A DNA stretch of 64,000 bases from Billgrantia endophytica (GTDB taxonomy: Bacteria > Pseudomonadota > Gammaproteobacteria > Pseudomonadales > Halomonadaceae): assembly GCF_002879615.1 (NCBI RefSeq), contig NZ_PNRF01000032.1:124001-188000 (forward strand), given 5' to 3'. Shown here in pieces: positions 8,010 to 21,091 of this stretch; the first letter of the stretch is position 1, and the number at the start of each line of letters is the position of its first letter. The notes under the pieces were generated by a model. It searched no databases. It was not told the origin of the DNA and saw nothing but the letters and a program-made list of their open reading frames with translations. A program made the translations under genes and the position numbers.

Positions 8010-9185
8010 ATGACCATTGCTGACCGCTGGCTGCTGCCCGACGGCATGGACGAGGTGCTGCCGCCCCAGGCGAGCCGCATGGAAGAGCTGCGCCGGGCAC
8101 TGCTCGATCTTTATCACTGCTGGGGCTATGACCAGGTGATGCCGCCGCCGGTGGAGTTCCTCGACTCGCTGTTGACGGGGACCGGCACGGACCTGGATCT
8201 GCAGACCTTCAAGTTGACCGATCAGTCGACAGGGCGGCTGATGGGCGTGAGTGCCGACGTCACGCCGCAGGTGGCGCGCATGGATGCCCACTCGATGCGC
8301 CACCGGGGCCCGGCCAGACTCTGTTACTGCACCAACGTGCTGCGTGCCAAGGCCGATCAGCCTCAGGGCGGCCGCAGCCCGGTCCAGGTCGGTGTGGAGC
8401 TGTTCGGCCATGCCGGCCTCGAGGCCGATCTGGAGATCCTGCGCCTGGCACTGACCAGCCTCAAGGTGGCGGGAGCTGATGAACTGCACCTGGCACTCGG
8501 TCATATCGGCATCTATCGCAGCCTGGTCCAGGCGGCAGCCCTCGATAGTGACCAGGAGCGGGCGTTATTCGCTGCGTTGGAGCTCAAGTCGCCAGGCGCA
8601 TTGGCAGAGCAGATCGAAGCCAGCGTCAGTGACGCGGCACTGGCAGAGATGTTCATGGCGCTGGGCGACTTGCATGGTGGCCCCGAGGTTCTGGACGCGG
8701 CTCGCGACGCCTTCGCCGGTGCACCGGCTGCGGTAGCCGAGGCCCTGGCCCAGTTGCGGGCCCTGTACCGCGGGGTGCTGGAGGCGCATCCCGAGGTCGA
8801 GCCCTATGTCGACCTGGCGGAACTGCGGGGCTACCAGTACCACACGGGCATGATGTTTGCCGCTTTCGTACCCGGCTATGGTCAGGCATTGGCCAAGGGC
8901 GGACGCTATGACGACACCGGCCGGGCCTTTGGTCGCGCCCGCCCGGCGACCGGCTTTTCCATGGATCTCAAGCTGTTGGCCACCCTGGTCCAAAGCGAGC
9001 CGGCTTGTGACGGGATCTGGGCTCCCGCGGATGGGGCTGGGGTCGGTGAGGCCATTGCCGCCTTGCGAGAGCAAGGCATGCGGGTCGTGCAGGCGCTGCC
9101 TGGACAGGCCACGGCTCCCGAGGCGCATCGCTGCAGTCGCCGACTGGTATTGACGGACGGCCACTGGCAGGCCGTGACGCTCTAG
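8010..9185 (+). CDS. hisZ: ATP phosphoribosyltransferase regulatory subunit HisZ
   Basis: HisZ is a catalytically inactive paralogue of histidyl-tRNA synthetase. It forms the regulatory subunit of short-form HisG, the first enzyme of histidine synthesis. The 391 residues begin MTIADRWLLPDGMDEVLPP and show class II synthetase-like segments (QTFKLTDQSTGRLMGVSADVTPQVAR, given here in two parts: QTFKLTDQSTGRLMG and VSADVTPQVAR; then KGGRYDDTGRAFG) but no C-terminal anticodon-binding domain. The ATG at 8010 gives the normal N-terminus. The usual neighbour purA starts 101 bp downstream. hisG is not in the window. Confidence 0.94.
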   Translation: MTIADRWLLPDGMDEVLPPQASRMEELRRALLDLYHCWGYDQVMPPPVEFLDSLLTGTGTDLDLQTFKLTDQSTGRLMGVSADVTPQVARMDAHSMRHRGPARLCYCTNVLRAKADQPQGGRSPVQVGVELFGHAGLEADLEILRLALTSLKVAGADELHLALGHIGIYRSLVQAAALDSDQERALFAALELKSPGALAEQIEASVSDAALAEMFMALGDLHGGPEVLDAARDAFAGAPAAVAEALAQLRALYRGVLEAHPEVEPYVDLAELRGYQYHTGMMFAAFVPGYGQALAKGGRYDDTGRAFGRARPATGFSMDLKLLATLVQSEPACDGIWAPADGAGVGEAIAALREQGMRVVQALPGQATAPEAHRCSRRLVLTDGHWQAVTL

Positions 9186-9196
9186 AGATGACATAG

Positions 9197-10582
<1,386 letters not shown>

Positions 10583-10640
10583 GCAACGCACCAGTTCGCC
10601 TGGATGACGACAACCCCAGGTTTCATGAACTCCCGTTATA

Positions 10641-10672
10641 CGAAAGGCCGGCACTGGGTTGCCGGCCTTTCG
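10641..10672. terminator. Hairpin terminator between purA and the polysaccharide operon
   Basis: A perfect 12-bp stem, CGAAAGGCCGGC (10641-10652) and GCCGGCCTTTCG (10661-10672), with an 8-base loop. It lies between two convergent genes and could stop transcription from both sides. There is no long T run. Confidence 0.65.
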
Positions 10673-10696
10673 CGATCTGCGCGGTGAACGGCCTGA

Positions 10697-13309
10697 TCAC
10701 TCGGATTCCGCGATCGCTTCCGACAGCAGGTCATGGAGTGTTTCAAGGGCCAGGTCGCTGTCGCCTTCCATCACGTCATCCAGCCACAGCAGGGCCTGGT
10801 CACGATTGGCCGTCTCGAGACCATGTGCCGAGAGGTAGGCCTCGGCCAGGGCAAGCCGAGCGGAGCCGTGCCCCTGTTCGGCCGACTGAAGGAGATAATC
10901 CGCCCCGCGCCGGGGATCCTGTTCGAGCAACTCGCCGCGGAGATATTCGCGCCCCAGGGTGGCTTGGGCACCGGGGTGATTCTGGTCGGCAGCCTCCTGT
11001 AACAGCGCTTGTCCCCGTTCGATATCCTGGGGCATGCCGTTCTCGCCGCGCAGCAGGATGCGGCCGAGATTGGCTCGGGCCGAGAGACTGCCGCTCTCCA
11101 CGGCGCGGTTCAGCCACTCCGCGGCCTGGTCCGGGTCGGATTCGACGCCGTTGCCGGTCAGGTAGGCCTGGCCGAGCCACTGTGCCGCATGTGGATTGCC
11201 GGTGTCGGCCGCCTGGCGCAGATAGGCGACGCCTTGTTCAGGGTCGGCCTCCACGTGGTCACCGTTGAGGTAGGCTCGACCCAGCCTCAGCCGTGCGGCC
11301 TCATGACCGCCGTCGGCGGCGGTCTGAAGCATCTGGATGCCGCGCTCGGGGTCGGTTTCGAGCAGCAGTTCCCCGAAATCTGCCCGTGCTCCGGCATGGC
11401 CCGCATCGGCGGCACGTTCCAGCCAGGCCCTTGCATGCTGATGGTCCTGCTGGACACCACGCCCATCCATGAAGGCCCGGCCCAGATCGGCCATGGCGCC
11501 GGGATGACCGTCCTCGGCTGCGGAAATCAAGGCATTGATATCGCCCTGGGCGCCACGGTCACGTTGAACGTAGGTGAGGGCATCGTCGGCGGCTTCATGA
11601 CCGGTCTCCTGGGCACGGTTCAGCCATCGGGTCGCTTGATCCAGGTCCTGTTCGACCCCGTTGCCATGGCGATAGGCCCTGCCGAGGACCACCATGGCGT
11701 AGCCATCGCCCTGGTTGGCCGCTTCCACCAGCAGATCATGACCCCGGGAAGGGTCCCGACTGTCCAGCGGGCCTTCCAGATAGGCTTCACCAAGCTGGGT
11801 CATTGCCGTCGTGTCGCCGGCCTGGGCGGCCGCCTGGAGCAGCTCTTCGCCTCGAGTCAGATCCCGCGGGAGGGTCTCGCCTTCGAGATGGGCTTGTCCC
11901 AACAGCCGCAGCGCTCCCTCCTGTCCCCTGTCGGCGGCTTCCTGCAGCAGTGCCTCCCCCCGGGAGCCGTCAGGGGAAACACCGCGGCCTTCCAGATAGG
12001 CCTGGCCGAGCTGCTGAGTGGCCCAGGGGTGGCCCTGCTCATGCCCCCGCTCCAGGTAATCGACGGCTATATAAGGTTGACCGGCGATGCGTTCGTCGTC
12101 GAGATAGAGTGCCCCCAACTGTGCCAGGGCCAAGGGATGGTCCTGCTCGGCGGCCTGTTCGAGCAGGCCGATGCCCCGCGGCAGATCATTGAGACCGCCC
12201 TGGCCTTCCACCAGGGCACGCCCCAGCATGACGGCGGCATCGAGCGACCCGGCTTCCACAGCTTCACGTAGCCAGCGTTCGGCACGCACCGGCTGTGGGC
12301 TACCCGTCTCGGGCTCCAGCAGGGCATGACCCAGATGGGCCATGGCGTCGACGTTGCCCTGGTTGGCGGCCTGCTCCAGGAGTTCGACACCCTGCTGGTA
12401 TTCGCCGGTATCGAGCATGGCGTTACCCGCCCGGGCCAGCGCGTCCAGGTCCCCTGCGTCGGCGGCCTGCTGCAGCCAATGTACCCGCTGATCGGGCTGG
12501 TCGCCGAGCAGGCCGCCTGGTTCGTAAAGCCTGGCGAGCTGGAGCATGGCGTTCGTCTCGCCCTGGCTGGCCTGCTTTTCCAGCACGTCCGCGTAGCGCT
12601 GGGAATAATCCATGGAGCGGGCCGGATCCTCTTCCAGCCATCCCCCGGGTGCGTAGGCCTCTGCCAGCCCCTTGAGCGCATGTTCCTGCTCACGCCCGGC
12701 GGCCCGGGCATAGAGCTGGTAGGCCAGGTCCGGGTCGGCTTCCACCCCGTCTCCTCCTTCGGCAAGCAGCGCGGCCAACCGGACTTCCGCGTCGCGGTCG
12801 AGGTCGGCCTCCATCGCCTGCCACAGCAGGTAATAGGCGAGAACGTCGTTGCGCTCGACTCCGGCTCCAGTGCGGTAGAGGCCGGCAAGGTTCAATGACG
12901 CATGGCCATGGATTGGGGAAGGGCGTTCAATGGCTTTGCCATACAGGCGGGCAGCCTCGGCCTGGTCCCGTTCGACACCCAGGCCACGCTCGTACAGCTT
13001 CGCCATTTCGTAATAGGCGGACGGAAAGCCGCGCTCCATGAGGGACTGGAACTCTTCGATGGCTTCCTCGTGGCGCCCGGCGGCAAGGGAGTCCTGGGCG
13101 GCATTGACCCGGTCCCAGTCGTAACCGTCCATCGGTACTTCGAGGCCGCCGTCGAACCAGGCCTCGTATTCCGCCGGAATGGCGCGGGCATGGCCACCGC
13201 CGGGGGGCTCGTCGGTAATGGCACAGCCTGCCAACCATGCCACGAGGATGGCCGCTGCGGCCAGCCGCAGCGGCGGTGCGATTCGGTTTCGGTAGGTGAT
13301 CGTTTTCAT
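10697..13309 (-). CDS. Very large Sel1-repeat lipoprotein (AlgK-like)
   Basis: An 870-residue outer-membrane or periplasmic lipoprotein. The start at 13309 gives a signal peptide ending in the lipobox LAGC. After residue 60 the chain is almost wholly Sel1-like repeats of about 36 residues (pattern A-x2-G-x3-A-x3-L-G-x2-Y), roughly 20 copies. In the alginate system AlgK is a 475-residue Sel1 lipoprotein that scaffolds the secretion complex and helps place the porin AlgE. By position and type this protein probably plays that part, but it is nearly twice as long. It is the last gene of the six-gene minus-strand operon. Its specific function is inferred. Confidence 0.85.
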   Translation of the reverse strand: MKTITYRNRIAPPLRLAAAAILVAWLAGCAITDEPPGGGHARAIPAEYEAWFDGGLEVPMDGYDWDRVNAAQDSLAAGRHEEAIEEFQSLMERGFPSAYYEMAKLYERGLGVERDQAEAARLYGKAIERPSPIHGHASLNLAGLYRTGAGVERNDVLAYYLLWQAMEADLDRDAEVRLAALLAEGGDGVEADPDLAYQLYARAAGREQEHALKGLAEAYAPGGWLEEDPARSMDYSQRYADVLEKQASQGETNAMLQLARLYEPGGLLGDQPDQRVHWLQQAADAGDLDALARAGNAMLDTGEYQQGVELLEQAANQGNVDAMAHLGHALLEPETGSPQPVRAERWLREAVEAGSLDAAVMLGRALVEGQGGLNDLPRGIGLLEQAAEQDHPLALAQLGALYLDDERIAGQPYIAVDYLERGHEQGHPWATQQLGQAYLEGRGVSPDGSRGEALLQEAADRGQEGALRLLGQAHLEGETLPRDLTRGEELLQAAAQAGDTTAMTQLGEAYLEGPLDSRDPSRGHDLLVEAANQGDGYAMVVLGRAYRHGNGVEQDLDQATRWLNRAQETGHEAADDALTYVQRDRGAQGDINALISAAEDGHPGAMADLGRAFMDGRGVQQDHQHARAWLERAADAGHAGARADFGELLLETDPERGIQMLQTAADGGHEAARLRLGRAYLNGDHVEADPEQGVAYLRQAADTGNPHAAQWLGQAYLTGNGVESDPDQAAEWLNRAVESGSLSARANLGRILLRGENGMPQDIERGQALLQEAADQNHPGAQATLGREYLRGELLEQDPRRGADYLLQSAEQGHGSARLALAEAYLSAHGLETANRDQALLWLDDVMEGDSDLALETLHDLLSEAIAESE

Positions 13310-13349
13310 GGTTATCCGCCTTGATATCGGGTCGCAATGACCGTGTTCC

Positions 13350-14600
13350 CTAGTCGCCAAGGCCGTAGAAGGCCTCGGTCCGGCTCCGATCATCGTCCAG
13401 CACGACGTGCTGTTGGGCATCGGGCTGCATGAGATAGAACGTCACGTAGCCCCCCGCGCTGCGGTTGTAGAGCGGACGTAGCCGGGACACCAGGCTGGCC
13501 ATGCGCGGATGGTCGAAACGGCGCTGGTAGATGTCCATCCAGGTAAAGTATTGCGGGTCCTTGAGAAAGCCCATGTACTGCTCGAGAGGGGCGTGGTCCC
13601 CCAGCGCCGCCGGGTCGTCGAGAATCGTGAAGAGATAGTCGACGGCATCATGAATGGTGCTCCCCTCGTACTCCAGATCGAAGATGTCGTAGCCCTGGCG
13701 GGAAATGACCTCCATGTTGGTCACCAGGTAGAGCAGGGCGTAATTCTGGTAGTGGATGGCACGGCGACCCCGCCGCACTTCCAGCGGCAGCGCCCCCTCT
13801 TCGGTCATGTCGTGCAGGGCGGAGTAGATGGCACTGACCCCGAAGCGAAACAGGTCTTCGTCTTCGGTGAGTATGCCGATCATGCTGGCGTAGAGCGCGC
13901 GACGGTAGAAGTGGTTGTTGCAGCAGCTCTCTTCGGGTTCGCCGGGTATCGCCGAGTGCTGCAGGGCGAGCCCGCGAAGCCAGAGTTCGACCTGTTCACG
14001 CTCCTCTTCCATGCCTTCGATATAAGGGCGGACGGTGGAGTAGGCCATGGCGGCGGCAAACAGCATCGACTCGCTGGCAAACCAGGCCTGCGGTTCCATG
14101 GATTCGTAACGGAAAGTGGTGAGTGCGCCGGCCTCTGCCCAATGGTCCAGATAGTTCACCAGGCATTCGGCATAGTAGGGGTCGCTGGTGGAAACGAAGG
14201 AGCCCGCCAGCATCGAGACAGTGTCCTCGAAGAGAAAGAGCGGCTCGGTGGCGACTTCCCACTCCTCGGGAGAGGGGTAGTAACCGGGGATGCGCCCCCG
14301 GGTCGTGATGGGTTCGTAATTCAGCAGCTGCCTGCAGCTCGGTCCTTGGGCCAGCTCATCCTTCTGTTGCAGCAGGATGGAGTTGTCGGTATTGCCGAGA
14401 AGTTCCTTGCGCTCTTCGACGTCGAAATAGCCGGCATCGGGGTTCGTGACCGTATAGCCCGAAAGATCTATGCCTTGCCGCTGTTCACGAGAGAGGGTAT
14501 CGGGATCGGCACTGGCGCCTGCCCACGCTCCGGCCAGGGCCAGGGGTAGAGCCAGGTGCAGCAGTTGGCGCGGCGGACGGCTTCGCAGGCGCTGTGTCAT
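13350..14600 (-). CDS. Secreted polysaccharide lyase, PL5 (AlgL-like)
   Basis: A 416-residue periplasmic lyase. The start at 14600 gives a signal peptide ending near ASADP. The match to P. aeruginosa AlgL runs through GYFDVEERKELLG, the tryptophan-rich helix HWAEAGAL, NNHFYRRALYASM and LEVRRGRRAIHYQNYALL. The catalytic set of the family can be placed: N229, H230, R277 and Y284, with the Arg-to-Tyr spacing of seven seen in AlgL. AlgL clears polymer that strays into the periplasm. PL5 enzymes are not limited to alginate: Smlt1473 of Stenotrophomonas also cleaves poly-glucuronate and hyaluronan. The operon context therefore leaves the substrate open. Confidence 0.9.
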   Translation of the reverse strand: MTQRLRSRPPRQLLHLALPLALAGAWAGASADPDTLSREQRQGIDLSGYTVTNPDAGYFDVEERKELLGNTDNSILLQQKDELAQGPSCRQLLNYEPITTRGRIPGYYPSPEEWEVATEPLFLFEDTVSMLAGSFVSTSDPYYAECLVNYLDHWAEAGALTTFRYESMEPQAWFASESMLFAAAMAYSTVRPYIEGMEEEREQVELWLRGLALQHSAIPGEPEESCCNNHFYRRALYASMIGILTEDEDLFRFGVSAIYSALHDMTEEGALPLEVRRGRRAIHYQNYALLYLVTNMEVISRQGYDIFDLEYEGSTIHDAVDYLFTILDDPAALGDHAPLEQYMGFLKDPQYFTWMDIYQRRFDHPRMASLVSRLRPLYNRSAGGYVTFYLMQPDAQQHVVLDDDRSRTEAFYGLGD

Positions 14601-14638
14601 GGTCGGTATCACTCCTTTGATACTCAAATGATGTGGCT

Positions 14639-15514
14639 TCACGGGGTGTAGAAGCGAAAGGCCGCGAAGTCGACAAACTGGTCTCGTGGGGTTTGCCACT
14701 CCTTGCCGGTTCCACCGAAGAAGGTCGAGAACATCAGGCCGTCGATGGTCGATTCCGGCGTGGTGCGATAGGTGATGTCGCGGTGTTCGAGCACCGGACG
14801 ACCGTCGATCCACAGGCGGGCGATGCCATTGTCCCGTCCCGGGTCGTTGAGTATGACCTCCTGTTCGACGCTCACCCATCGCCCCACCGGGAAATGCCAG
14901 GACCCGCGACCCACCGATACGCCTTCGTGACCCACCACATAGGGGTAGAGCTCCCCCTCGCCCATTTCGCGCCACATCAGGCGCAGCGAGAAGCCGTTCT
15001 CGCCGTCCACGGCTTCACCGCCGCTTGGGGCATCACCGCCATAAAGGCCGGGCAGCTTGCCGCCCTTGACGAAGTCGAAATCGGGGGCGAAGCGCACCTG
15101 GTAGCTGAGACAGGCTCGTTCCGCCCCAGCCAGGGCTTTCGGATCGGCATAGAAGCCGGCTCCGCCGAGCGGTTCATCGCTCGGGGACGAGGTACCAGCC
15201 GGGTAATGGACCCGCAGGCCGGGTTCGTCAAGGTCGGTATGCTCGGCACCGAGGCGCTGTACATTCTCCTCGGTGCCCCAGTGGCGGTGGGTGTCGAAGC
15301 CTTCACGGATCGACTCGTGGCCGTTGCCTGCCTGGGCGGGCCTTGGCGTATCGACCTGTACATAACGCTGGGAACAGGCCTCGACCTGTGGCACTCCCAC
15401 GGAGGCTTCGTCGACATCCTCGGCGAGGGCCGGTCCGACGGTCAGCAGGGCCAGGGCCGTCAACAGGCCGCCGGCCTTGCGATGTCTTGCGTAGAGAACG
15501 TTGTCCAGAGGCAT
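14639..15514 (-). CDS. Secreted polysaccharide lyase, PL14/PL20 jelly-roll type
   Basis: A 291-residue secreted protein with a signal peptide at residues 1-31 (cleavage after GPALA). An AAGGAG ribosome site 7 bp upstream supports the start at 15514. The jelly-roll lyase signature is KGGKLPGLYGG at residues 150-160, followed by GFSLRLMWREMGEGELYPYV, NDPGRDNGIARLWIDGRPV and FSTFFGG. I recognise these from the PL14/PL20 group, which contains beta-1,4-glucuronan lyases as well as alginate lyases. No alginate operon I know carries this enzyme. It sits between the Alg44-like gene and the PL5 lyase. The family call is from memory of motifs and not from a search. Confidence 0.8.
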   Translation of the reverse strand: MPLDNVLYARHRKAGGLLTALALLTVGPALAEDVDEASVGVPQVEACSQRYVQVDTPRPAQAGNGHESIREGFDTHRHWGTEENVQRLGAEHTDLDEPGLRVHYPAGTSSPSDEPLGGAGFYADPKALAGAERACLSYQVRFAPDFDFVKGGKLPGLYGGDAPSGGEAVDGENGFSLRLMWREMGEGELYPYVVGHEGVSVGRGSWHFPVGRWVSVEQEVILNDPGRDNGIARLWIDGRPVLEHRDITYRTTPESTIDGLMFSTFFGGTGKEWQTPRDQFVDFAAFRFYTP

Positions 15515-15578
15515 GCTGGCTCCTTGCGGTTGGGCCGCGCTGTCATGGCACTGCGGATCGCCTGCGGTACAGGGCCCC

Positions 15579-17135
15579 TTACCCTTCATCGGTGTCGTCA
15601 TCGTTTTCCTCCAGGGCGGCGCGATAGATGTTGTCACCGAACTGAATCACCGTGCGTACTCCCTGCCAGATGCGCTCGGAAGCGGCACCCAGCAGCGGTG
15701 CTTCGGTGAATCGGACATCCACCGGCTGGCCGACGCTTTCGGCCGGCAGCGTTTCCTCGGGAACCAGCAGGACGCTGGCGACGTTCTGCTGTTGTCGCAC
15801 CCAATTGGGGAAGCCGGCACGGGGCTGGCGTTCCACGTCAAGCGCTACATTGCGAACCCGGGCGCGAATCGGCTCGGAGCTGTTGGCCAGGGTGATGTAG
15901 GCTTGCTGGTTGGGTTCGATACGATTGATATCGTTCATGTGAACCAGCGCTTCCACCATGACGTCGTCATCGCCGGTACGGATCAGGGTCATGATCCGCT
16001 CGCTCTCGTTGATATAGGTGCCATCGGCACTGCTCAGGGCCCAGGCCACGAGACAGTCACAGGGGCTATAGATATTGTTGCTTGCCTTTCTTGCCTCCAG
16101 GGCGGTAATGCGCGAGTTCTCGTAGTCCCGCACCGTTTCGAACTGCTCGATCCGGGCCTGGGCGATCTCCGGCGACACCGATTCGAAGGTCATGGTATCG
16201 CCGCTGGCCGGCTGGGCGGAGTTGGCCAGGCTGACCTCCTGGTTACCGGCTTCCATGTGTTCCTGAAGGTTCTCGATCAGCCGGTTGTTGTAGTTCAGTG
16301 CGGCATCGGCAAGGATCAGGTCGGACTCCAGATCGCTGTTCTCGACATTGGTGAGCAGTTGGTCCCGTTCGACCCGATCACCGGCCTGGAGCTCGTGTTC
16401 GGCCAGGATGCCGGGCCCGGGGGCACGGATGTCGATACGGGGTGCGGTAACGGCGGCAAAGCTCGGTTCGATAAGCATGAAGTTGCGATAGGCGGTCGCG
16501 GCACCCACCAGCACCAGCAGCCCGATGGCCAGGAACAGGATGATGTAGCGTCCCATCGGCTTGGGTGGCCGGGCGGGGGCGCGCGGCTTGCCCGGCTCGA
16601 TCTGGCGCTTGTGCGGTGTCTGGGGGTCTTCACCCGCCATCAGGCCTTCGATATCGGGTGAACGACCGCTAAGTGCGCTGCGTATGACCTGACGCAGCAG
16701 CTCGCGATGAGGCGGCTCGATATCGATGATTTCGAAGCTGGCCCGCTGACCACCCCCGTTGGGGGCGGCGGAGCCGACCCGGAGGCATTCGGCCTTCAGC
16801 GGAACGATCAGCTCGGTCGGGCCAGCCATCAGCAGGAGCGAAGCCGATACCTTCTCGCCGGGCTGAAAGCCGCGTTCGCTCTGGGCCGAGAAGCCACCAA
16901 GCGAAACATCGGAGCCGGGCAAGGTGCTGCCGTCATCCAGCCGGACACGGAATGGGAGTGCGACACGGATATAGCCTCGCTCGTCGCGACGCTCGTGCTG
17001 CACTCGGTCGCCTTTGGTCAGGCGCGCATGCTCCTGGCCGCCGCTCTCGGATTCCGGGACACCGCCTCGTGGGGGAGTATGCCCCAGGGTGGGTTCATGA
17101 CGTTCTTGATCGTCGCTTGAGTAGTGGTCAGCCAT
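15579..17135 (-). CDS. PilZ and membrane-fusion protein, Alg44-like c-di-GMP receptor
   Basis: A 518-residue co-polymerase. The N-terminal cytoplasmic PilZ domain has both c-di-GMP motifs: RGYIR (R53, R57) and DVSLGG (residues 76-81). One membrane span follows at about 196-216 (GRYIILFLAIGLLVLVGAA), then a periplasmic HlyD-like region with a coiled-coil hairpin and barrel. In Pseudomonas, Alg44 binds c-di-GMP and switches on the synthase Alg8. The same layout beside an Alg8-like gene supports the same control here. The start at 17135 follows AAGGAG; an earlier in-frame ATG would lie inside the synthase gene. Confidence 0.9.
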   Translation of the reverse strand: MADHYSSDDQERHEPTLGHTPPRGGVPESESGGQEHARLTKGDRVQHERRDERGYIRVALPFRVRLDDGSTLPGSDVSLGGFSAQSERGFQPGEKVSASLLLMAGPTELIVPLKAECLRVGSAAPNGGGQRASFEIIDIEPPHRELLRQVIRSALSGRSPDIEGLMAGEDPQTPHKRQIEPGKPRAPARPPKPMGRYIILFLAIGLLVLVGAATAYRNFMLIEPSFAAVTAPRIDIRAPGPGILAEHELQAGDRVERDQLLTNVENSDLESDLILADAALNYNNRLIENLQEHMEAGNQEVSLANSAQPASGDTMTFESVSPEIAQARIEQFETVRDYENSRITALEARKASNNIYSPCDCLVAWALSSADGTYINESERIMTLIRTGDDDVMVEALVHMNDINRIEPNQQAYITLANSSEPIRARVRNVALDVERQPRAGFPNWVRQQQNVASVLLVPEETLPAESVGQPVDVRFTEAPLLGAASERIWQGVRTVIQFGDNIYRAALEENDDDTDEG

Positions 17136-17154
17136 CCGTTGGTCGCTCCTTGCG

Positions 17155-19089
17155 TTAGGGTCCAACCGTTGCCACGTCAGTTGCGGCAAGGGGTTCGAGC
17201 CTCAGACGTATGTTGACGAGAGTCAGATCATGTTCATGCAGCGCCAGGCTGCAGCTTGCATCGGTGGTGCAATGCACCCTGCCTTCGACGGGTTCTCCGT
17301 CCGGCCCCCGCAGCCGTGCTGCAAGATCGGGTACCAGCGCCAGAGTCGTGGTGGCGTTGCCGACGGCGCCGCTGACCAGGTCCGCTCTTGCCCGCGGGCC
17401 CTTATCCCAGGCATCGAGCAAGGTGCCATCCAGGCGGAAGGTGCCGGCGGGGAGCTGCACCGTGCCACCGTCAGGGGTGTCGACAAGGGCCAGGTAGAGC
17501 CAGCGGTCGACGTATTCCTGCTGCGAGTTGCCCCAGCCGTTGTCCCGCGCAATGGAGAGCGAGATTCGGTCCGGTGGTTGCAGTACGCCAGTGGTAAGCG
17601 TCAGGGCGAAAAGCAGTACGCCGTAGGCGAAGCCGTGAAGCACGTGGCCCATGCGCCGCTGGCGTCGGGCTGCCACCGGGTTGCCGGGCTCCCCGGCGGA
17701 GATGCCCTGGCGCGACCATTTCTGGCGGTTGAAGCGGAAGCTGACATAGGTCTTGAGCATCGCGCCCCATACCTGGTTGTAATAGATCAGCGGGATCCAC
17801 AGCAGGCTGTAGCGACCTCTCTGCCACGCCAGAATCAGCGTGGCGATGCCACGGGTGAAGATGATCCAGAGGACGTAGGCGAAGAGGAAGGATGGCCTGA
17901 CGAATAGCGATACCAGCGTTACCACCGTTGGCCCGACCAGCGTGGTCCACATGGAAAGGCGCTGGTCCACCAGGCTCCACCAGGTGAACATCCCCATGGG
18001 GCGTGGCCCCAGGGCGATGGCCCGATTGCTGGTACGCAGCATGTTGCCGTACCAGCGGCGCATCAGGTCGGTGGTCGAGGCGAAGAAGCGTCGCCTGTCC
18101 GGCAGCTCCTCGAACCCCGTGACATGGACATCGGGCAGGTAGAGCATTCGCCAGCCATTCTTCAGCAGCCAGAACCAGGATGACTTGTCATCACCCGAAA
18201 GGAACGTGAAATGGCCGAATCGCCAATGATCGACATGGTCGCTTTCGATGAGTTCGATGAAATCCGGCTGAGTTGCCAGGTCGGCACGAAAGACGCTGTA
18301 GCGTCCCGTGAGTACCAGTAGTCTCCTGGACACCGACATGGAGCTCATCATCAGGTGCCGCTGGGCGTAGCGCAGGTCATACCACTCGCATGTGGCATCG
18401 TCACCGGTGACCTCGGCGCGATTGTTGGTGGTCAAGGCCCCAAGGTCTGCCTGGGCCTGGAAGAAGGAGAGCGAGCGTGGCAGCGTGCCGGGCTCGAGGC
18501 GGATATCGCCATCCATCGAGATCAGCAATGCCCCCGGGGCCGGCAGGCGGCGTGAGATTGCTCGCAGCACCTCGGCCATGGCGGAGCGCTTGCCATCCCC
18601 CTTCTGGAACATGTAGCGGATCTCGATGTTCTCCGGCCAGTCATGCTCATCCATGACATGGGTGATGACATCCACGTCGGTGCGATCCGATATCGAGGCG
18701 AAGATGGTGGTGGGCACTCCGTAGTCGGCGACCTCCCGAACCATGGCGTCGTAGACCTGAAAGTTGATTTCGGCCTCGATGCGATAGGACGTGCAGAGCA
18801 CGAAGAGCTCGGGTGGACGCACGATTTCGTCCACCGTATCCGCCTCGGCTCGCAGCCGAGGGAAAACGTGGCGGTTGTACCAGACCGAGCGAACGGCTTG
18901 TATCAGCCACCACGAGTAGCGCCAGACGGCGATACCCCCGATGACGAAGAAGAAGCTCTGTGACTCCGGGGTGAAGACATCCGATGGCAGCTGACTGAAC
19001 ACCACGATCAACAGGGCCAGGCCCAGCGCCAGGGTGGTACATTCCGATACCCAACTGGCAACGGTAGGATCTCGAGGAGCACGGGACAT
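17155..19089 (-). CDS. Processive family 2 glycosyltransferase, Alg8-like, with extra C-terminal domain
   Basis: A 644-residue membrane synthase. Two N-terminal membrane segments precede the GT-A domain with DGD at 193-195, GDDKS at 299-303 and RRWYGNMLR at 344-352, the arrangement of Alg8. More membrane segments follow to about residue 502. Alg8 of P. aeruginosa ends there at 494 residues; this protein continues for about 140 residues on the periplasmic side. That extension contains GGTVQLPAGTFRLDGTL, which resembles the first turn of a right-handed beta-helix. With ugd 9 bp upstream, the likely donor is UDP-glucuronate. The start is supported by GAGGAG. Confidence 0.88.
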   Translation of the reverse strand: MSRAPRDPTVASWVSECTTLALGLALLIVVFSQLPSDVFTPESQSFFFVIGGIAVWRYSWWLIQAVRSVWYNRHVFPRLRAEADTVDEIVRPPELFVLCTSYRIEAEINFQVYDAMVREVADYGVPTTIFASISDRTDVDVITHVMDEHDWPENIEIRYMFQKGDGKRSAMAEVLRAISRRLPAPGALLISMDGDIRLEPGTLPRSLSFFQAQADLGALTTNNRAEVTGDDATCEWYDLRYAQRHLMMSSMSVSRRLLVLTGRYSVFRADLATQPDFIELIESDHVDHWRFGHFTFLSGDDKSSWFWLLKNGWRMLYLPDVHVTGFEELPDRRRFFASTTDLMRRWYGNMLRTSNRAIALGPRPMGMFTWWSLVDQRLSMWTTLVGPTVVTLVSLFVRPSFLFAYVLWIIFTRGIATLILAWQRGRYSLLWIPLIYYNQVWGAMLKTYVSFRFNRQKWSRQGISAGEPGNPVAARRQRRMGHVLHGFAYGVLLFALTLTTGVLQPPDRISLSIARDNGWGNSQQEYVDRWLYLALVDTPDGGTVQLPAGTFRLDGTLLDAWDKGPRARADLVSGAVGNATTTLALVPDLAARLRGPDGEPVEGRVHCTTDASCSLALHEHDLTLVNIRLRLEPLAATDVATVGP

Positions 19090-19098
19090 GTCGACTCC

Positions 19099-20445
19099 TC
19101 AGGCCAGTACTGGCCGTACCGAGTCACCACGGCCAATGGCGTAATAGCTGAGCCCGGCAGCCTTGACGGTTTCCGGGGAAAAGAGGTTGCGGCCGTCGAT
19201 CACCACCGGTTCGAGCAGTGTCTTGTACAGTTGGTCGAAATCGATGGTACGGAAGGCCTTCCACTCGGTGCAGATGACCAGCGCGTGAGCGCCTTCCAGT
19301 GCCTCGTCGCGGTTGTCGGCGAGGACGAGGTCATCGCGTTCGCCATAGATCCGGTGGCACTCGCTGGCCGCCTCGGGATCGAAGGCCTGGACGCGGGCGC
19401 CAGCCTTCCAGAGGGCTTCCATCAACGTCCGGCTGGGGGCCTCACGCATGTCGTCGGTGTTGGGCTTGAAGGCCAGACCCCATAAGGCGATGGTCTTGTC
19501 GGCGAGCTGGCCATCGAAGGCCTGGCATAGCTTCTCGAACAGCTTGCCCTTCTGCCGGCTGTTGACACGCTCCACGGCCTTGATCATTTCGGCGGGATGT
19601 CCCGCCTCTTCGGCGGTATGGGCCAACGCCTTGACGTCCTTGGGAAAGCAGGAGCCACCATAGCCGCAGCCGGGATAGATGAAACTGTAGCCGATCCGGG
19701 GATCGGAGCCGATACCGTGGCGAACCTCTTCAACGTCGGCGCCCAGGCGCTCGGCCAGGTTGGCCACTTCATTGATGAAGCTGATCTTGGTGGCCAGCAT
19801 GGCATTGGCCGCGTACTTGGTCAGCTCGGCACTGCGGATGCCCATGAACAGCATCTTGTCGCGCTGACGGTTGTAGGGGCCATAGCACTCCATCATGGCC
19901 TTCTTGACGCGCTCAGAATCCGTCCCGACCACGATTCGCGAGCCTCGGGAAAAGTCTTCGAGCGCGGCTCCTTCCTTGAGGAATTCGGGATTGGAGCAGA
20001 CATCGAACGCCATCGACCGACCGCGCTTTTCCAATGATGCCGCGACGGCACGCCCCACCTTGCTGGCGGTTCCTACCGGCACGGTCGACTTGTCGACGAT
20101 GATCCTGTAGTCGTTCATGTTATTGCCGATGGTTTCAGCCACCTTGAGCACATGGGTCAGGTCGGCGCTGCCATCCTCGTCTGAAGGGGTGCCTACCGCG
20201 ATGAACTGAAGCAGGCCGAAATCGACACCCTCGGCGGAGTCCGTCGTGAAGCGCAGCCGCCCCGCGGCCTGGTTCTTGCCGATCAGGCTCTCGAGGCCGG
20301 GTTCGTAGATAGGGACTTCACCGGCATTCAGACGGGCGACCTTGTCGACGTCCACGTCGACACAGATCACGTCATGACCGACATCGGCCAGACAGGCGCC
20401 GGTCACGAGTCCCACATAGCCAGAACCGAAGATGGTAATCCTCAT
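19099..20445 (-). CDS. ugd: UDP-glucose 6-dehydrogenase
   Basis: A 448-residue enzyme that oxidises UDP-glucose twice with NAD+ to UDP-glucuronate. It has the Rossmann start [20 protein letters not shown], the catalytic cysteine in [13 protein letters not shown], and [16 protein letters not shown]. This combination is typical of Ugd rather than of GDP-mannose dehydrogenase AlgD. It is the first gene of the minus-strand polysaccharide operon, so it points to a glucuronate-containing polymer. AAGGAG lies just upstream of the ATG. A sigma-54-type promoter match lies about 115 bp upstream of the start. Confidence 0.95.
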
Positions 20446-20667: not shown

Positions 20668-20814
20668 CTGCGGCCAAGTGTGAGGAGAGACTTGTAGATC
20701 AAGTGCTTGAAGTGTCGTCAAATGGAGACGTTGCCGGTTAGTTGTTATTTACATGATTGTTTTTAAAGGGTTGATTCTTGTTGGTGCAGCGCAGGATATC
20801 CCTGGACGTGTCAC

Positions 20815-21091
20815 TCACGACCAGCCCGCGTGCTCGGCCAGACGTGCCATGCGGTAGGTGTGGTGATCCAGTGCCGTGGTTTCACGAATGAACGGGGCGT
20901 CGAACTCGGCGAGTCTCCCTGGCGAAGATATCCTGTTCTTCCGGAGGCAAGTCACGCAGGCGAAGGCGTTTGACCCGCTCCACAGGGCGGCTGCCGACAT
21001 CAACAGCATGCCCTTGCGCCATGTCATCGACAAGCGAGGCGGCGGGTGAAATGATTTCACGCTTCCGGCCGCTGACAGCGATTTCGGCCAT
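20815..21091 (-). pseudogene. Small unknown ORF, apparently frameshifted
   Basis: From an ATG at 21091 one minus-strand frame reads MAEIAVSGRKREIISPAASL and continues to RLRDLPPEEQDIFARETRR before stopping at 20882. The next frame, from about 20918, continues with coding-like sequence (RLAEFDAPFIRETTALDHHT) and stops at 20815. Joined by a one-base shift near 20905-20920 they would form a protein of about 92 residues. It lies head-to-head with the GNAT gene, 30 bp apart. I do not recognise the family. A sequencing error would give the same picture. Confidence 0.4.

Follow-up and report, generated by a model that had tools for sequence, protein, structure and literature searches.

The alginate operon, whose genes are ordered algD-8-44-KEGXLIJFA, is among the closest described counterparts of the locus analysed here. 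For glucuronan, a lyase has been reported for Sinorhizobium meliloti, and a 2023 paper states that the biosynthesis genes and loci remain unknown (PMC10180729). We analysed a window of 64,000 nucleotides from Billgrantia endophytica (assembly GCF_002879615.1, contig NZ_PNRF01000032.1, positions 124,001 to 188,000), which carries six minus-strand genes separated by short gaps. A preliminary description, made from the letters alone, had read these genes as one operon. All six lie at the stated place, which confirms the observation, and Pfam and NCBIfam domain calls identify the encoded proteins. In order of transcription, the operon encodes a UDP-glucose dehydrogenase (UGD; gene ugd), a GT2 synthase, a PilZ-HlyD protein, a PL14 lyase, a PL5 lyase and a Sel1 lipoprotein. 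We propose that it directs a synthase-dependent exopolysaccharide pathway controlled by cyclic di-GMP (c-di-GMP), with UDP-glucuronate as the polymerised donor and 1,4-linked glucuronan as the most likely product. The preliminary description had favoured glucuronan or a related glucuronic-acid polymer, the sequence evidence supports this, and we assign this reading a probability of about 0.65.

Six genes in a conserved order

As the preliminary description had suggested, genomes sharing the gene order were gathered. Among the best 80 of 82 loci from a profile search of genomes, 73 carry all six genes in the same order, and 16 of 17 stretches from the same genus contain the full set (L033 has several split genes, and a contig end truncates L046). 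The arrangement is therefore not a product of chance. Three of the exceptions among the 80 are limited by their contigs, which end after the PL5 gene (L075) or are short (L091 and L111). In L132 (H. saccharevitans) the synthase gene lies close to a contig end without ugd, whereas in L107 (Caenispirillum salinarum) ugd is found behind the PilZ gene. Metagenome-assembled genomes from Geminicoccaceae (L134) and Rhodobacteraceae (L136) have only the synthase, PilZ and PL5 genes. Adjacent open reading frames (ORFs) of the same family occur in 11 of the 73 six-gene loci and may reflect frameshifts or duplications.

A further genome set contains synthase matches in 44 of 117 genomes, the window genome included, and 41 of these belong to its genus. 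In wider samples that also include it, a synthase relative is present, at the thresholds used, in 10 of 369 genomes at class level and in 24 of 398 at phylum level. Carriers include species studied for their exopolysaccharides, namely H. smyrnensis, H. maura, H. ventosae and L. anticariensis.

The loci with fewer genes bear on whether the product might be a neutral polymer, or one made from another UDP-sugar, with ugd and the lyases serving some other purpose such as defence against foreign polyuronates. Three distant relatives (L134, L136 and L180) lack an adjoining dehydrogenase, as this would predict, but the PL5 gene adjoins the synthase gene in all three, and UGD together with two lyase families accompanies the synthase in 73 of the 80 loci, making such a product improbable. 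One of these more distant relatives, L180 (genome G773), groups with a Rhodobacteraceae metagenome-assembled genome and has a PF00483 NTP_transferase gene upstream of its GT2, PilZ and PL5 genes. This nucleotidyltransferase, GalU-like by eye, is a candidate UDP-glucose maker.

Dehydrogenase and synthase

The preliminary description had named UGD rather than AlgD as the dedicated sugar-nucleotide enzyme, and the best PDB matches bear this out: the operon dehydrogenase scores 546 bits against UGD (2y0e) versus 207 bits against GDP-mannose dehydrogenase (GMD; 1mfz). For the AlgD of the alginate operon used as a control (L048), the scores are reversed, with 557 bits to GMD and 185-240 bits to UGDs. 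In the 4.98-Mb window genome, four PF03721 dehydrogenases exceed the cut-off: the operon enzyme, two further UGD-type enzymes and one closest to the UDP-N-acetylmannosamine type. No GMD was found among these four by profile search, tree or PDB scores. A complete alg operon elsewhere in the genome, which the preliminary description had considered, was not seen; at an E-value of 1e-10 the genome has this single synthase copy, and it has no recognised GMD.

The operon of C. salinarum is informative with regard to how UGD was acquired. Its UGD gene, situated between those for PilZ-HlyD and PL14, encodes a protein scoring 488 bits against UGD 4a7p and 173 against GMD. In the trees this enzyme belongs to another lineage, whereas the accompanying synthase nests among those of Halomonadaceae, a pattern likely reflecting independent recruitment of the same activity. 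The Salinicola operon UGDs also group apart, together with another UGD of the window genome (96/85). Because of these two placements, UGD appears to have joined the operon repeatedly, and two or three entries seem to have occurred. The C. salinarum locus has a further feature: divergently from the operon it encodes a 1075-residue protein with CBM2 and RTX regions, perhaps secreted to modify or bind the polymer, and an ABC exporter (L107:4436-9456, minus strand). Members of the CBM2 family bind cellulose, and glucuronan amounts to cellulose oxidised at C6, an intriguing, if speculative, link.

The synthase tree comprises 49 rows (47 different): the window, 18 of the 80 loci and 30 rows from other genomes. 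It has long branches and is drawn with a root that was not inferred. All 19 UGD-linked synthases fall into a single clade (97/98), adjacent to rows with no dehydrogenase in view, while 12 GMD-linked synthases form a separate clade (99/94) and four more lie across the drawn root. With sets picked after the tree was seen, topology tests rejected both a group uniting the UGD-linked synthases with seven Alg8 rows from alginate operons (p = 3.5e-58) and a single clade of all GMD-linked rows (p = 1.8e-6). Since the GMD-linked rows are not one clade, linkage to UGD may be the derived state. Placement of the synthase inside an AlgD-associated Alg8 clade, which the preliminary description had held to be incompatible with its reading, is not what the tree gives: the window synthase sits in a separate clade, and its near relatives adjoin UGD, not AlgD.

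Relatives on rhizobial plasmids were considered as glucuronan loci and rejected. Fourteen plasmid records matched, nine of them from Rhizobium; six were examined and five scored, and in all five a GMD-type dehydrogenase lies beside the synthase. The sixth (L202) has a nucleotide sugar dehydrogenase at this position according to its feature table. Of the nine Rhizobium records, the three that were annotated are GMD-linked. On two large Rhizobium plasmids that lack gene annotation in the collection (L198 and L199), alginate-type operons combine PL5 and an AlgD-like dehydrogenase with a pair of very long Sel1 proteins. In L174, from a genome of the same class as the window genome, PL14, HlyD-type and GT2 genes form a trio (8120-12462, minus strand); its synthase belongs to a distant branch with no dehydrogenase in view.

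The two synthase groups also differ in sequence. Residues were compared between 76 of the 80 UGD-side loci (L091, L132, L134 and L136 omitted) and 16 GMD-linked rows (L175, L187, L190, L191 and L192 omitted), with thresholds of 95% and 85%. Twenty-four positions differ, including D135/E, F161/R, Q162/I, D165/T, S169/D and N223/E (UGD-side/GMD-linked); at position 135, the GMD-linked side has Glu in 14 of 16 rows. By analogy with other GT2 enzymes, these positions would be expected within or close to the donor site. The SDR, DGD, GDDKS and RRW segments of the synthase are kept.

One could regard the operon as an alginate operon stripped of its modification genes, with a synthase that has kept GDP-mannuronate as its donor and with ugd as a passenger. 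The core parts do resemble Alg8, Alg44, AlgK and AlgL, a mannosyltransferase stands high in the list of fold matches given below, and the genome of H. smyrnensis AAD6, a strain that carries the operon (L135), was described in 2015 with genes called 'Alg8' and 'alginate lyase' (PMC4523562). Yet no GMD was found to supply such a synthase in the window genome, the synthase lies outside the Alg8 clade and differs from it in the residues listed above, and the passenger in C. salinarum would be a UGD of another lineage. We therefore strongly disfavour this explanation as very improbable. Alginate was likewise rejected as the product in this strain, as no GMD was found in its genome.

Because a PDB sequence search with the synthase gave no meaningful match, a fold search was done instead, using an AlphaFold model with a mean predicted local distance difference test (pLDDT) of 77. 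The top matches are hyaluronan synthases (13 rows; Z = 27.7-31.0, root-mean-square deviation 2.6-4.0 over 369-413 residues), the structural alignments having a sequence identity of just 12-14%. Yeast Chs1 (Z = 22.2) and bacterial cellulose synthase (Z up to 21.6) rank lower. Hyaluronan synthases use UDP-glucuronate.

This fold similarity is among the points in favour of a mixed polymer, in which Ugd would feed one of two sugars and glucuronate would be joined to glucose, as in the type 3 pneumococcal capsule, or to N-acetylglucosamine, as in hyaluronan. A single processive GT2 synthase is paired with a ugd gene in both cps3D/cps3S and hasA/hasB, and the PL5 lyase Smlt1473 also cuts hyaluronan. 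The nearest sequence relatives outside the clade, however, are of Alg8 type, and these make homopolymers before epimerisation. Moreover, the operon contains no gene for a second donor, and its second lyase belongs to PL14, a family acting on polyuronates for which we know of no hyaluronan activity. A mixed product thus seems unlikely, though less so than the other alternatives, and we retain glucuronan as the preferred product.

The C-terminal extension of the synthase is probably periplasmic. It has two invariant cysteines (24 aligned rows), is lacking in certain relatives (L045 and L050, for example), and is modelled fairly confidently (pLDDT 83). No convincing Pfam family and no fold match above noise were found for it (best Z = 2.8). 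Alginate epimerases and PL6 lyases give Z = 2.1-2.5 and one epimerase matches at an E-value of 1.3, which at most hints at a beta-helix cap.

Lyases, regulator, scaffold and gene layout

The preliminary description had called the second lyase 'PL14/PL20-type'. Pfam assigns it to PL14 (PF21294), and PL20 was rejected. GGKxPG and GELYxY, which we take to be PL14 active-site segments, occur in 75 and 74 of 76 loci, respectively, and an unrefined pattern, SLR.MW, was present in just 3 of 76. The PL5 lyase scores 148 bits against A1-III (1hv6), 99 against 7fhu and 63 against 4ozv, the latter two presumably being Smlt1473 and AlgL. Its CCNNH and HYQNY segments are kept in 77 and 76 of 77 loci, respectively, and presumably provide the Asn-His and Tyr residues of the active site. 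The closest solved PL14 structure is 5gmt (E-value 2.2e-28), an Aplysia enzyme (PMC8145301), followed more weakly by the chlorovirus lyase vAL-1 (3a0n; 4.1e-6).

Both families have members that cut poly-glucuronate, as the preliminary description had held. vAL-1 cuts 1,4-linked glucuronic acids, according to a paper citing earlier work (PMC8145301), and for Smlt1473 the reported substrates are poly-glucuronate (pH 7), alginates (pH 9) and hyaluronan (pH 5) (PMC8511899). The substrates shared by PL14 and PL5 are thus 1,4-linked polyuronates, and with UDP-glucuronate as donor the answer common to both would be poly-glucuronate.

Additional lyase genes are seen at some loci. A second PL14-PL5 pair lies downstream of the Sel1 gene in five of the 73 six-gene loci (L063, L064, L072, L073 and L140) and also in L032 and L033; L031 shows a PL14 gene before the stretch ends. 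In five loci, including L124, the first gene after Sel1 encodes a protein with a likely signal peptide that is perhaps lyase-like by eye.

The PilZ-HlyD protein has the architecture of Alg44: an N-terminal c-di-GMP-type PilZ domain, a single membrane helix recognised by eye and a periplasmic HlyD/membrane-fusion part. Sequence similarity to the Alg44 of the control operon is low (32 bits). The RxxxR and [DN]xSxxG motifs, from which c-di-GMP binding is predicted, are kept in 75 of 77 loci. The Sel1 lipoprotein matches the AlgK model at 1.2e-33 with 116 bits, far under the cut-off of 700, and an unrefined lipobox pattern was found in 65 of 74 Sel1 proteins.

AlgE, AlgX, AlgG, AlgF, AlgI, AlgJ and AlgA had been described as absent, which holds for the locus, with flanking ORFs judged by eye; AlgG, AlgF and AlgA were not sought genome-wide. 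The AlgE family (PF13372) has no match in the window genome, with an insensitive model that scores the control AlgE of L048 at 21.7 bits, below its cut-off. It exceeds the cut-off in none of the 41 synthase-bearing genus members, the window genome included (G031 reaches 20.2 bits), and in 4 of 76 genus genomes. AlgX-family searches gave no match in the window genome and were silent in all 14 control genomes, and MBOAT searches gave none in the window genome and were positive in 3 of the 14 controls. A porin hidden in the flanks was rejected, as the recognisable recurrent neighbours are, by eye, housekeeping genes such as purA.

The gene extents differ from those first given, in that four of the six 5' ends (Sel1, PL5, PL14 and PilZ-HlyD) had been placed too far upstream. 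Revised starts, the higher coordinates in Table 1, were picked by eye from a signal peptide, lipobox or ribosome-binding site. With these, the genes are free of overlaps and are spaced by 9, 19, 64, 38 and 40 nucleotides. Scans for sigma-70-like promoters and terminators gave nothing above chance; the inverted repeat in Table 1 was read directly, outside the scan output. On one side of the operon is purA and on the other an ATP-grasp gene remnant (both identified by eye). The remnant spans 39 codons (20803-20919, minus strand; 77% identity; RimK-like by eye), and in relatives such as L031, L032, L037 and L045 the gene upstream of ugd is longer and open.

Table 1. Coordinates of the operon features within the window
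Feature	Position	Strand	Description	Evidence
ugd	19099..20445	-	UDP-glucose 6-dehydrogenase, makes UDP-glucuronate, 448 aa	PF03721/PF00984/PF03720; UGD side of tree
Processive GT2 membrane synthase	17155..19089	-	644 aa, Alg8-related	PF13641; separate UGD-linked clade
Synthase C-terminal extension	17158..17577	-	~140 aa past last predicted long helix	
Alg44-like PilZ-HlyD protein	15579..17135	-	518 aa	PF07238 + PF13437
PL14 polysaccharide lyase	14639..15514	-	291 aa	PF21294 7.5e-61; signal peptide by eye
PL5 polysaccharide lyase	13350..14600	-	416 aa	PF05426 4.2e-34; signal peptide by eye
Long Sel1-repeat lipoprotein, putative AlgK-like scaffold	10697..13309	-	870 aa	PF08238 2.6e-85; lipobox LAGC
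Candidate terminator	10641..10672	.	13-bp perfect inverted repeat between Sel1 stop and purA	no T tail

The proposed system and its described relatives

From the gene content we infer the following scheme for donor use, polymer and linkage, c-di-GMP control, scaffold, lyases and porin. Ugd would convert UDP-glucose to UDP-glucuronate, which the Alg8-related synthase would polymerise across the inner membrane. The PilZ-HlyD protein would bind c-di-GMP and activate the synthase, much as Alg44 acts on Alg8, and the Sel1 lipoprotein may serve as an AlgK-like scaffold towards a porin encoded elsewhere. PL14 and PL5 could cut stray periplasmic polymer and trim or release the product, by analogy with AlgL, a PL5 enzyme thought to clear misplaced periplasmic polymer in alginate producers (PMC5099689).

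Several points weigh against this scheme. An export porin was found neither in the operon nor, by eye, in the 22 most recurrent flanking families. The two additional UGDs of the window genome mean that the operon ugd indicates a demand for UDP-glucuronate, not glucuronate as the sole sugar. Residue differences between clades can arise by descent alone, and the C. salinarum UGD is a long branch whose placement the tree program marks as unsure. In the fold search, the mannosyltransferase PcManGT (6yv7) follows close behind the hyaluronan synthases (Z = 27.6, 338 residues) and the comparison contained no Alg8 model, so the fold supports a processive synthase while leaving the donor unsettled. PL5 is also present in several GMD-linked operons and thus says little about the polymer by itself; the closest solved PL14 and PL5 enzymes carry alginate lyase names, and the substrate range of Smlt1473 is broad, extending to alginates and hyaluronan (PMC8511899). 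Finally, the Halomonas exopolysaccharide compositions consulted are mixed sugars with glucuronate from 3% or traces to 27.9% (strain TG39, as cited), in strains that may or may not carry the operon (PMC11132480, PMC6962145). One carrier, H. maura (L137), makes mauran, for which a Wzy-type route is reported.

The preliminary description knew of no described operon with this gene set. A search of the open-access literature, within the accessible text, found no glucuronan synthase and no description of the six-gene operon, and the main text of a large operon survey names neither Halomonas nor UDP-glucose dehydrogenase (PMC7112194). The claim needs qualifying to the extent that individual genes were already listed as 'Alg8' and 'alginate lyase' in H. 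smyrnensis AAD6 (PMC4523562).

We consider the operon a variant of synthase-dependent exopolysaccharide secretion and, judged from its sequence, a strong candidate to supply the glucuronan genes that have been missing, offering a concrete starting point in many halophiles, including those studied for their exopolysaccharides. On balance, we lean towards its being the first identified operon for glucuronan biosynthesis and secretion, in which an Alg8-family synthase changed its donor from GDP-mannuronate to UDP-glucuronate, UGD joined more than once, and the genes for a widespread, c-di-GMP-controlled polyuronate matrix of Halomonadaceae have carried alginate names. Our results suggest that a halomonad gene labelled 'Alg8' or 'alginate lyase' does not necessarily point to alginate. 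The GDP-mannuronate-linked and UDP-glucuronate-linked synthases form a natural pair of clades with mapped residue differences, which provides a handle on donor choice.

With regard to described systems, the operon shares with the alginate system (control operon L048) a dehydrogenase, a GT2 synthase of the same family, a PilZ-HlyD regulator, PL5 and a Sel1/TPR lipoprotein. It differs in having UGD in place of GMD, a separate synthase clade and an extra PL14 lyase, in lacking AlgE/G/X/I/J/F/A at the locus, and in the size of its Sel1 lipoprotein, which is about twice that of the control AlgK (870 residues versus an ORF of 448). The hasA/hasB and cps3S/cps3D loci likewise combine UGD with one processive GT2 synthase using UDP-glucuronate, but are not known to include PilZ control, lyases or a scaffold lipoprotein. 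vAL-1 and Smlt1473 belong to the same families as the operon lyases and both are reported to act on poly-glucuronate, Smlt1473 broadly; to our knowledge, neither comes from a biosynthetic operon with UGD. Among polymers, the nearest counterpart is that of the glucuronan producers Sinorhizobium meliloti M5N1CS and Peteryoungia rosettiformans, whose 1,4-linked poly-glucuronate is the product proposed here.

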